Shown: positions 19,853 through 23,320 of the stretch, one piece after another
Layout of the letters: each line of letters begins with the position of its first letter
How positions within the stretch are numbered: position 1 is the stretch's first letter
Translations under genes and position numbers: made by a program
Origin: Candidatus Bathyarchaeia archaeon
GTDB taxonomy: Archaea > Thermoproteota > Bathyarchaeia > 40CM-2-53-6
Length of the DNA stretch: 64,000 nt
Direction: 5' to 3'
NCBI GenBank assembly: GCA_035935655.1
Contig: DASYWW010000037.1
Location: forward strand, 62,001-126,000
Notes under the pieces: model-generated
Seen by the model: the letters and a program-made list of their open reading frames with translations, nothing else
Told to the model about the DNA's origin: nothing
The model's database searches: none

Positions 19853-20185
19853 GTTTGGGCGGTGGTGGGGGGCTGGGAAGCCGGTCGTTTCCTGTTACCC
19901 GAAATCGACCTATGCGGGAGCCCGTTAACTTTGGCGAGCGGCAACCTCGACCAGGCAGAAGACCCAGTTGTCTACTGTGACATCCTGCCCCACCAGGTCG
20001 GCGGCGTGGGAGCGCTCTCTGAAGGGAGGGTTGCTACCTGCTCACGGTCGAATCCGGCGAGGCCCGGAAGGGAGCAGTCGTAAGGTCGACGTTCGACGCA
20101 GGTGGGATCCCAGGGTGGAGAAAACAGCTAGGACACCGTGCCTGGAAGAGATGCCCATCACCAGAGGACGCCATCACCGCCTTTG
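19853..20185 (+). ncRNA. ffs: Signal recognition particle RNA (7S), approximate ends
   Basis: The helix 8 hallmark GGCCCGGAAGGGAGCAG is at 20061-20077, next to GTCGTAAGGTCGAC, as in archaeal SRP RNAs. Upstream, CTGTTACCCGAAATCGACC resembles the helix 3/4 domain that binds SRP19 with helix 8. The 5' part GGCGGTGGTGG (19858-19868) can pair with CCATCACCGCC (20171-20181), closing the molecule as archaeal helix 1 does; an inner CCCATCACC at 20153-20161 is an alternative partner, so the 3' end is uncertain by about 20 bases. Length about 330 fits the family. The last 40 bases are duplicated at 21101. Confidence 0.88.
20142..20178 (+). repeat. Direct repeat, left copy, inside the SRP RNA 3' end
   Basis: 37 bases beginning CTGGAAGAGATGCCCATCAC, repeated at 21101-21137 with two differences. 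The left copy is part of the SRP RNA 3' strand. An integrase N-terminal remnant starts right behind it. This is the picture left by site-specific integration into the 3' end of an RNA gene. Confidence 0.75.
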
Positions 20186-20186
20186 G

Positions 20187-20401
20187 GGATTCTACGACTA
20201 GCCCCAGAACTCCAATCTGAAGTGGTCAACCTGCATCTCTGGATGAAGAGAGAAGGCTACAGCCTGGCAACAATCAAAGATCGCACCAAGACAGTCAAAC
20301 GGCTCTTTCTTCACTTAGGGAGTTTGCTAGATGGAGAGGCAGTAGCAAGACCAGATGGAACATGGTTGCAGTTTGAAAAGCTGCCATCAGTTGTGGTATA
20401 G
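20187..20401 (+). pseudogene. Tyrosine integrase, N-terminal remnant
   Basis: An open frame (which runs back into the SRP RNA 3' end, where an ATG lies at 20138) encodes about 55 residues like the N-terminal core-binding domain of archaeal XerA/SSV-type integrases: LWMKREGYSLATIKDRTKTV, then KRLFLHLGSLLDGEAV. The similarity stops near 20355 and the frame ends at 20401; no catalytic domain follows. The 3' part overlaps the end of the opposite-strand cohesin-like gene. Integrases of this group insert at RNA gene 3' ends and are often left as N-terminal fragments. Recognised by pattern, not by a search. Confidence 0.6.
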
Positions 20402-20934
20402 GGCTGGATTTGGAATCTGTCGTCTAGTAGCACAGTGAGAAAATTGCCATTCTCGGACACTATATGGAGATCCGTGTATGCAAACCTACTGAGGACCTTC
20501 CAGGTAATGTTCAGCAAAGTTGTGGGTTCTGCAGTCGTCAGAGTGTGATCGGAGAAGTATGCGAAACCGACTATGAAGTCGCCATGATTGGTAACAATGA
20601 AAGTGCAGTTGGAGGGGTCGTAGCCACACCGATAGTAGCCATTAGAGTTCCTTGTTCTGTTGGCGATAAAATAGGGAGAGGTTGTCCAATCACTGCCGAG
20701 GGAATAATCAACAACGGCGACTGCTTGGGCATTAAATGTTATGTGGAATTGCCAAGCCATTATTCCCGGAACATAGCTAGCATTCAGGGCCGTTGTGAAC
20801 AGATCGCCTTCCCTTAGGTGGATGTCCTTCATGCTAGGTAGGCTCAGGTTGGGGGGAGAAGTGGTGGCATGTACAGGAAAAACTGGCAAGAGAATCAAAA
20901 CCAAAGTGGCCAGAGCAAGAATTGCAGCTTTCAT
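20311..20934 (-). CDS. Secreted cohesin-like protein
   Basis: 207 residues with a clear signal peptide (MKAAILALATLVLILLPVFPVHA). The rest is beta-rich and begins like a cohesin-type domain: LREGDLFTTALNAS, then IMAWQFHITFNAQAVAVVD, the usual pattern of an AWQF strand after a short lead. Several N-x-T/S sites occur. Such domains mediate cell-surface or extracellular binding; no dockerin is visible. It is the only intact gene between the two SRP-end repeats, so it may be cargo of the small element. A TTAAATAATT promoter-like box lies about 40 bases before the ATG. Confidence 0.7.
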   Translation of the reverse strand: MKAAILALATLVLILLPVFPVHATTSPPNLSLPSMKDIHLREGDLFTTALNASYVPGIMAWQFHITFNAQAVAVVDYSLGSDWTTSPYFIANRTRNSNGYYRCGYDPSNCTFIVTNHGDFIVGFAYFSDHTLTTAEPTTLLNITWKVLSRFAYTDLHIVSENGNFLTVLLDDRFQIQPYTTTDGSFSNCNHVPSGLATASPSSKLPK

Positions 20935-21100
20935 GGAAGATTAGCCAAAGCGAACCAACAGAGGTTCAATTATTTAACAATGGCAACATCAGGGTTCAGT
21001 TTACTCTTCCAAAGAGGACCTGGGTTACGTGTCTACATCGAGGAATGTGTGGCCTGATGACTTGTGACTAAACAATTGTCCATGACTCCTACCAACCTGT

Positions 21101-21137
21101 CTGGAAGAGATACCCATCACCAGAGGACGCCACCACC
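21101..21137 (+). repeat. Direct repeat, right copy of the SRP RNA 3' end
   Basis: 35 of 37 bases match the SRP RNA 3' segment at 20142-20178; a shorter match (GCCTTT) follows after a 3-base insertion. It is not attached to the rest of an SRP RNA. It could be the right attachment site of a 960 bp integrated element. Confidence 0.75.
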
Positions 21138-21200
21138 ACGGCCTTTTACGGTCTGATCAAAGCCGTCGGCGTAGATCGGCTACCTACCTAGGGGCTGAGC

Positions 21201-21563
21201 CTAGACCACTATCACGGTCGTAGAGCCCATCGCGGATGAGCCAACCAGATCCATTACGGTGCAGGTCGCGACCTTTGTGCCAACGGAAGTGTAGGCGTGA
21301 GTCGGGTTCGGTCCCGTGCCAGTACCTCCGTCACCAAATGTCCAAGAATAAGAATACGGTTGAATTCCCCCCGTTGCCATACATGAGAATGAGACCTGTT
21401 GACCTACAATTGCAGTCATAGGATTTGCGCTAGCTGAAGCGGCGAGAGGAGCGGGAGGGCTAACCCTGCTAGTGTTCTGGAAGGAGACAGAGCTTGCACC
21501 AAGTACATTCGTTATCAATAGAAGAAAAAGAAAAGGGGAAATTAGGGCGATCGATAGACGCAT
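21201..21563 (-). CDS. Secreted PKD-domain protein
   Basis: 120 residues from the ATG at 21563 (MRLSIALISPFLFLLLIT is the signal peptide); the longer frame to 21635 overlaps the upstream gene and is less likely. After the signal come a short SFQNTSRV segment, a Pro/Ala/Ser linker and one PKD domain (SYSWTFGDGG, then HAYTSVGTKVATCTVMD). PKD domains are beta sandwiches common in archaeal surface proteins. It follows the next upstream gene by 8 bases in the same operon, and both share the QNTSR motif. Confidence 0.72.
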   Translation of the reverse strand: MRLSIALISPFLFLLLITNVLGASSVSFQNTSRVSPPAPLAASASANPMTAIVGQQVSFSCMATGGIQPYSYSWTFGDGGTGTGPNPTHAYTSVGTKVATCTVMDLVGSSAMGSTTVIVV

Positions 21564-21571
21564 CTTCCGCA

Positions 21572-22057
21572 CTACGTGACCGAAACGGTAAACGTAGGTC
21601 CCGGATTTGCTAGGGGAGCAAATGCCCCGGCGCACACGCCGATAGAAACTGGCGAGGTCGTTGCTGTGTTAGCTGCGAGGGTCGGTGGAACGCCGGAGGG
21701 GGACTGGAAAACCAAGCCGCTGCCCGTCGAGGGACAAGCGCCGGCTCCCCCAAGACTACTGGTAACAGTAGGGTTGTCAGACGTCGACCCTTGGTTGTCG
21801 ATGCAGAAGTACTCGATCTGCGGAGCTCCTCCCTGCGTTAGGTTCCAGAATACGGAAGAGGGGGCGTTTGTGTAAGCTCCGTTGAGATGCGCGGGACAAC
21901 TTCCAGGATTGGTGTTGGAGAGCTGCGTGATGAATATGTTCAAGCCAGTGTTTATCCTTGAAGTGTTTTGGATGGTGACTTGGGTCGCCGCAAAGCCGGC
22001 GGCCACGATTATTACTGGGATCACGAAGGCGAGTAGTTTCAGGTGTCGAGTGTTCAT
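21572..22057 (-). CDS. Secreted protein of unknown family
   Basis: 161 residues with an N-terminal hydrophobic signal (LLAFVIPVIIVAAGFAATQ) followed at once by VTIQNTSRINTG. The mature part is beta-rich, rich in Ser, Thr, Asn, Gly and Pro, with four Cys that may form disulfides (for example GSCPAH, YFCID, GACPS, GVCAGAF). It leads a two-gene operon with the PKD protein; both mature N-termini carry QNTSR. It may be a pilin-like or surface structural protein, which is only a suggestion. Confidence 0.65.
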   Translation of the reverse strand: MNTRHLKLLAFVIPVIIVAAGFAATQVTIQNTSRINTGLNIFITQLSNTNPGSCPAHLNGAYTNAPSSVFWNLTQGGAPQIEYFCIDNQGSTSDNPTVTSSLGGAGACPSTGSGLVFQSPSGVPPTLAANTATTSPVSIGVCAGAFAPLANPGPTFTVSVT

Positions 22058-22162
22058 TGTTGAAGAAAGGGGTTACATTCGGTCTATTTAGACTGTGCAT
22101 AGAGAAGTACTCCTAACGATATCTAATTATGACTAAGGATAAACTGATATGCAATTTAGCCA

Positions 22163-22906
22163 TTAACCCTGGTCGCCAGTTTCCACGCGGGGCCTTTCGA
22201 CGCTCGAATCTGCCCATGGGTCTATTTCGAAGGGTCGGACATCCATCCCGGAGATGGAGTACCCGTAGCTTCGAAGCTTCTTCAGGAAAGCGTTGCCTCT
22301 TCCTCTGAGTTCTGACAGGTTCGTTGCGAAATTCTTGAAGATCTCTCTCGCTTTCGTAGAATGGACTAGTTCTTGCTTACTGACGAGGCTCAAGGTCCCT
22401 TCAGCGATCTTGTCGAGGTAGCCGTTGTAGAACTCGACAAAATCATTGGCTAGCTCGACCAGATCGTAGTCGAGCAGAACCCCTGCCTTCCGCATCATTA
22501 TCCTGACCTTATCTCGCATTGAGAAATACCAGAACTGGAATACAAGAAATAAGTCCTTGACTCCAGGGATCTTTGCCGACGCGATCTCAGGTCTCAGCGC
22601 GTCTGACTCAGGAGGGACGATCTCCAACAGCCTGACTATCCTCTTGTCCTCCCCTTCACCACCCTGCTCAAAATTTATCCGGCCAAAGTCTTCCAGCAAT
22701 ACTTCGAACTGTGACAGAAGCTCTAGGGCGGTGCGGTGCGTTTTCTTTGTGTAATCAAACCATCCCCAAATTGCCCCAAGAACAACGATGATTGGAGCAA
22801 TGTAAAGAATCGATACATATCGAAGAAAAGTCAAGGCAAGCAAGACTAGTTGGGGAGCAAACAGCCAGACTTGCCCTTTCGAAAGACTTCCGAAATACTC
22901 CCTCAT
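22163..22906 (-). CDS. Membrane-anchored protein of unknown function
   Basis: 247 residues. Two hydrophobic helices near the N-terminus (about 13-52) are followed by a soluble, mostly helical domain with many charged residues. No known motif. The gene starts 12 bases after the small two-helix gene at 22919-23110, so the two are probably one transcript. Confidence 0.65.
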   Translation of the reverse strand: MREYFGSLSKGQVWLFAPQLVLLALTFLRYVSILYIAPIIVVLGAIWGWFDYTKKTHRTALELLSQFEVLLEDFGRINFEQGGEGEDKRIVRLLEIVPPESDALRPEIASAKIPGVKDLFLVFQFWYFSMRDKVRIMMRKAGVLLDYDLVELANDFVEFYNGYLDKIAEGTLSLVSKQELVHSTKAREIFKNFATNLSELRGRGNAFLKKLRSYGYSISGMDVRPFEIDPWADSSVERPRVETGDQG

Positions 22907-22918
22907 AGCGGGTCTCTT

Positions 22919-23110
22919 CTACCTGAGTCTTCTCGCAATTGGGAGGGCAACCTCGACAATCAACCCAATGGTAACGAAGCTCCAGCCGCTTTGAGTGAAA
23001 TCGATCCCTTCCCCGAAGCTTCCTAGGATGACAAGAATGAATCCTAGGAGCAGAGCCAGAGCTGGTGATGCGGACGTCAGGACTCGGGTGCGTGACCCCA
23101 ATGATTTCAC
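22919..23110 (-). CDS. Small two-helix membrane protein, 63 aa
   Basis: 63 residues, GTG start, with two hydrophobic helices (ALALLLGFILVILGSF and FVTIGLIVEVALPIA) and a basic C-terminus. Twelve bases upstream of the membrane-anchored protein gene; probably a partner of it. Function unknown. Confidence 0.55.
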   Translation of the reverse strand: MKSLGSRTRVLTSASPALALLLGFILVILGSFGEGIDFTQSGWSFVTIGLIVEVALPIARRLR

Positions 23111-23320
23111 TCAGGAGTGTCGGTGGGACCCGTCTGTATTCCCGAGGTATTCTCGGCTCAGCGGTAGAAAACGGCTTAGTAACCCATCTTGAGAGATGCG
23201 CGGTGAAAGCTCGCGCGCTTGCCGGGGCTATGAAGCACTCTCACTTGTCAAGTGTTCATGGCCTGGACTAATTCTCAATTACGCAAAAAAAGTGGGCGGG
23301 AGGCTTGATCCCTCCCATGG

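Follow-up and report, generated by a model that had tools for sequence, protein, structure and literature searches.

The 3' ends of the SRP RNA and RNase P RNA genes as attachment sites of an integrase lineage in Bathyarchaeia

In Bathyarchaeia, a lineage of integrases that is tRNA-derived uses the 3' ends of two other RNA genes, those for SRP RNA and RNase P RNA, as attachment (att) sites. Our starting point was a 64,000-nt stretch of contig DASYWW010000037.1 (hereafter the window; contig C37 of a 2.5 Mb host genome that we label G000). The best explanation for what is found there, to which we assign a probability of roughly 0.9, is that a small tyrosine-integrase element integrated by recombination at the 3' end of the genome's only SRP RNA gene and subsequently decayed. 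This reading is carried by a direct repeat of the RNA 3' end, by empty sites in related genomes, by integrase homology at the place where it is expected and by intact parallel elements at RNase P RNA. The genes for SRP RNA and RNase P RNA are universal, essential and usually single-copy, and SRP RNA forms the core of SRP, which belongs to the protein-export machinery. An earlier note on this DNA had proposed that the SRP RNA gene served as an attachment site and that a small decayed element remains; the proposal is borne out by the repeat, the empty sites in two genus mates (G015 and G017), the integrase homology and the RNase P parallel, and neither of the two results that the note had named as speaking against it was obtained.

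Results

The SRP RNA gene and its duplicated 3' end

The host's named relatives are soil Bathyarchaeia, e.g. Crenarchaeota archaeon 13_1_40CM_3_52_17 and Bathyarchaeota BA_19, and all of the genomes compared are metagenome-assembled. The relevant features of the window are:

19860..20178, plus strand: SRP (7S) RNA gene; RF01857 covariance-model match at 19860-20176, 161.2 bits, full length (1-317)
20134..20178, plus strand: attL, the left direct-repeat copy, 45 nt, within the SRP RNA 3' strand (from the repeat and the alignment with relatives)
20138..20401, plus strand: integrase N-terminal remnant ORF, 87 aa, with clear homology at about 20198-20345 (start of the core-binding domain)
20311..20934, minus strand: cargo gene for a 207-aa secreted protein with a cohesin-like domain (Cohesin Pfam match)
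21093..21137, plus strand: attR, the displaced original SRP RNA 3' end, matching the left copy at 89% identity (from the alignment with relatives)
21138..23207, no strand assigned: sequence that originally followed the gene; in G015 and G017 it directly adjoins the SRP RNA 3' end

The match at 19860-20176 is the only SRP RNA copy in the host genome, and the gene is complete after integration, its 161.2 bits comparing with 153-164 bits in genus mates that have a complete SRP RNA. The two repeat copies, 45 nt long and 89% identical, are spaced 959 nt apart; the 37-nt repeat with two substitutions originally reported (20142-20178 and 21101-21137) is exact and extends to this length. We screened for such duplicates in 127 SRP genes from Bathyarchaeia, aligning the terminal 51 nt of each locally against up to 20 kb of downstream sequence. 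Since the window's duplicate scored 31.5 and the maximum among 1270 shuffled or reversed controls was 15, the duplicate is not due to chance. A fold of the two alternative 3' ends, which the earlier note had suggested as a check, showed that the SRP 5' arm pairs as well with the left one as with the right (-34.4 vs -34.0 kcal/mol).

Empty sites in genus mates

The comparison with close relatives that had been suggested alongside the fold uncovered an insertion polymorphism. In G015 (L039) and G017 (L038) an intact SRP RNA 3' end joins the window's post-repeat flank directly, in a single BLAST alignment that extends from window position 21098 to 23207 (78% identity over 2.1 kb), and the 959 nt between the window's repeats are absent from both genomes. 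The right junction is the only clean comparison because the flank upstream of the SRP RNA gene has no synteny between the window and the empty-site genomes; in the other genus mates the flanks differ from the G015/G017 type. Immediately past the right repeat, at 21201-22057 on the minus strand, are two more short secreted-protein genes (one with a PKD domain), and these fall within the flank common to G015 and G017.

An integrase remnant and a single cargo gene

The open frame of the remnant behind the left copy reaches back into the SRP RNA gene, and the C-terminal catalytic part is missing. A Pfam search with the 87-aa ORF alone gave no match. The remnant is 46-61% identical to the N-termini of full-length tyrosine recombinases (PF00589 proteins), and a genus-wide tblastn search with it detected two full-length genes, in G010:C29 (321 aa) and G015:C11 (310 aa), at 52-61% identity over about 48 aa. 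Pfam Phage_integrase matches these two proteins with E = 3e-16 and 5e-21, respectively, Xer-like R, K, HxxR, H and Y residues are visible in their alignment, and the nearest solved structures are XerA-type recombinases. The integrase-like segment of the earlier note thus stands by its homology to intact tyrosine integrases and not by a profile search of the remnant itself. What the window retains is an N-terminal fragment of about 60 aa only, not a complete integrase with the catalytic R-K-HxxR-H-Y set, and for this reason we regard it as a remnant and not as a live element.

No intact SRP-type integrase was found by a search with the fragment in 257 genomes of the class, and there was no intact integrase at the SRP RNA 3' end among the 127 SRP loci. 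Neither the fragment nor the integrase family nor the two att cores led to anything useful in IMG/VR scans, which also revealed no intact SRP-type integrase, and phage records yielded distant integrases only, at 31% identity or less among the matches listed. Given these results, we infer the enzyme that acted at SRP RNA from its remnant.

As the earlier note had it, a single secreted cohesin-like gene lies between the repeats; the Cohesin match of its 207-aa product is barely above the cut-off (25.4 vs 24.1 bits). No counterpart was found in 17 genus mates, making the gene unique to the host within the genus. The 3' end of its ORF overlaps the int fragment antisense, as a deletion junction would, and the 959-bp insert looks like the leftover of a larger element after internal deletion and not like a natural 1-kb unit.

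Parallel elements at the RNase P RNA gene

The integrase lineage to which the SRP remnant belongs also targets the 3' end of RNase P RNA, where repeats and empty sites occur as well. The intact integrases of G010 (L049, 321 aa) and G015 (L050, 310 aa) start inside the 3' end of RNase P RNA, the RF00373 matches overlapping the start of int. We screened 18 RNase P loci, namely those of the order together with contig QHSX01000026.1, which is labelled Rokubacteria AR20, carries an archaeal RNase P RNA and is a misbinned archaeal contig. At 3/18 loci the RNase P 3' end recurs downstream: in G010 (an element of 1.8 kb), in G015 (6.1 kb) and in AR20 (2.2 kb). It is also at these three that an integrase, or a fragment of one, lies at the RNA end, and the remaining 15/18 have neither. 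The two elements with an intact integrase are:

MNHO01000027.1 (G010:C29; L049, L229), 1.8 kb: intact integrase, RNase P 3'-end repeats
MNGN01000024.1 (G015:C11; L050, L228), 6.1 kb: intact integrase, RNase P 3'-end repeats

An uninterrupted RNase P locus in G008 matches the flank to the right of the repeats in G010 and AR20. The AR20 copy (L139, 1-2400) is decayed and has the architecture of the window: the RNase P end, a truncated int N-terminus, a secreted PQQ-propeller gene on the other strand and the displaced RNase P end. The larger of the intact elements (G015) carries NosD-like and BNR-type secreted proteins.

In the integrase tree the SRP fragments are sister to the RNase P integrases with a support of 0.97, inside a tRNA-targeting lineage. 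Members at tRNA sites (G000:C39, G018 and G013) have tRNA 3' repeats of 32-44 nt that lie 2.9-5.6 kb away. The first of these, in the host genome itself (G000:C39:141989-142879; L087, L231), is an integrase pseudogene with one stop that overlaps a tRNA 3' end, a 44-nt copy of the tRNA being located about 5.6 kb further on. The integrase family is present in 180/257 genomes of the class, and at most of the sampled class loci a tRNA lies instead at the 3' side of int.

Other SRP RNA loci

Among the 127 SRP loci, the window provides the clear case of a link with an integrase. A second genome, G009 (L036), has the same int fragment directly behind its SRP RNA, with 81% protein identity over 48 aa, and because the fragment occupies the same position there, a chimeric contig is excluded as the source of the window's arrangement. 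G009 has neither a right repeat copy nor anything of the window's cargo; past the int fragment it joins sequence upstream of an aldo/keto reductase gene (window 24835 onward), a junction that is consistent with a later deletion. When the window and G009 fragments are compared, their differences at codon positions 1, 2 and 3 are in the ratio 5:6:16 (chi-square about 8.2, p about 0.02), and neither has a stop, which indicates that most of the divergence arose while the sequence was coding and that truncation came late in each line. The two fragments may go back to one insertion or to two; a short gene tree places G000 beside G009+(G012,G013), and one insertion plus a loss is also allowed by this tree.

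The SRP RNA 3' end was also struck by a separate insertion in another family (f11). In G094 (L216, G094:C36) 7.05 kb separate the SRP RNA end from a 23-nt partial copy (22/23 identical), and in the sister genome G093 (L220, G093:C102; about 90% identical), which represents the empty site, the SRP RNA is joined directly to the sequence right of G094's copy. At this site the right copy has lost 17 nt. The inserted 7.05 kb carry genes for two secreted PQQ-repeat proteins and for a regulator of the Lrp type, and contain no recognisable integrase that would point to the mechanism there.

We also considered G087 (L268, G087:C1) as a further att case. Its SRP gene (60-372) is repeated 1.66 kb downstream (1719-2011; 293/313 nt, 99.3%) around a radical-SAM gene, and sister genomes have one SRP copy; we rejected it because almost the whole gene is duplicated.

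Discussion

A model that accounts for these data begins with an element whose attP would hold a copy of the last ~40 nt of the SRP RNA gene. The lost integrase itself would have recognised the SRP RNA, and a conservative crossover, whose exact position we infer to lie within the shared 3' sequence, would have rebuilt a complete SRP RNA at the left (attL) and pushed the original 3' end 959 nt downstream (attR). The integrase gene begins inside att, its N-terminus being read from the 3' end of the RNA gene. In the order of decay that we consider likely, a later internal deletion would have cost the integrase its catalytic part and probably carried off further genes, leaving one secreted-protein gene and an immobile scar.

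An alternative, which we consider unlikely, is that the window holds a non-autonomous mini-element consisting of att, the first ~60 int codons and one cargo gene, which was moved in trans by a complete integrase and did not decay after arrival. Such a unit could account for the int fragments of like length, each with att, at SRP RNA (the window and G009) and at RNase P RNA (AR20), for the single secreted-protein gene in both the window and AR20, and for the stop-free codon pattern of the window and G009 fragments, most of whose divergence arose while coding. Against it we note that: (i) no identical copy was found at two sites or in two genomes; (ii) the fragments end differently, at about codon 48 in AR20 vs about 62-64 in the window and G009; (iii) the cargo of the window has left no trace in G009 and (iv) the antisense overlap of the cargo ORF with the int fragment resembles a deletion junction.

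Much less probable is a suicidal integration of the SSV1 type, in which int would have been split by its own att, leaving the fragment as int(N) after loss of int(C). The isolated N-terminal fragment does adjoin a regenerated RNA gene, as SSV-type int(N) does (PMC8371274), and all three truncated copies (the window, G009 and AR20) are N-terminus only. However, att lies inside int in SSV1-type systems, whereas here the att core precedes the N-terminal domain, with which it shares one reading frame; in addition, the nearest relatives have a single, unsplit integrase gene between their att copies, and the search beside the right copy yielded no C-terminal int fragment. A tandem or ectopic duplication that involved no site-specific recombination, with the integrase-like ORF present by coincidence, has a precedent in the SRP repeat of G087 but is scarcely credible, as only the 3' end is repeated in the window, the integrase starts exactly at the junction, the fragment recurs at that place in a second genome, and intact integrases are found in an identical arrangement at RNase P RNA. 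Both the elements at RNase P RNA and the empty sites contradict such an origin.

Decay of a site-specifically integrated element is, then, the reading that we favor. More tentatively, and with rather more doubt than belief, we suggest that a tRNA-derived integrase lineage may have switched repeatedly to RNase P and SRP RNA, giving rise to compact elements of 1-7 kb with mostly secreted or surface cargo. The host RNA gene would hold the int start codon, guide integration, encode the first residues and possibly supply the promoter, and some elements would depend on an integrase supplied in trans, being non-autonomous.

The usual targets of archaeal elements are tRNA genes, alongside some intergenic and protein-gene sites. 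In a thaumarchaeal survey 39 of the sites were tRNA genes, 14 were protein genes and 15 were intergenic, and neither SRP RNA nor RNase P RNA comes up there (Krupovic et al. 2019, PMC6563490); a review of archaeal recombinases mentions neither RNA as a target (PMC8371274). In the part of the literature covered, no previous description of either gene as attB turned up. Their use by integrases extends the range of att targets past tRNA, tmRNA and protein genes and offers a new place in which to seek hidden archaeal islands; the 15/68 'intergenic' thaumarchaeal sites (PMC6563490) could include unannotated RNA genes. With SRP, RNase P and tRNA users adjacent in one small clade, in which att sequence is translated into the integrase N-terminus, there is also a test case for how integrases change targets.

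Comparison with known systems

The window's element resembles the tRNA-targeting archaeal elements with XerC/D-type integrases (PMC6563490; PMC8371274) in having an integrase beside att, a repeat of the RNA 3' end, a restored gene and empty sites, and differs from them in its target, the SRP RNA (and RNase P RNA) gene. Its closest integrase relatives are in the RNase P elements of G010, G015 and AR20, where the int frame likewise starts inside the RNA 3' end; the AR20 copy shares the decayed layout, whereas the G010 and G015 elements keep a complete integrase, and the target RNA is a different one. With the SSV1-type suicidal integrases it has in common that att is translated as part of the integrase and that N-terminal fragments persist in genomes, but att is at the extreme 5' end of the window-type int, which permits integration without splitting the gene. 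Like the bacterial tRNA/tmRNA islands (Islander, PMC4383910; Williams 2002), it uses the 3' end of a conserved RNA gene as attB, although the host is archaeal and SRP and RNase P RNA take the place of tRNA and tmRNA. The element is ordinary for its class, and the target genes are the new part.
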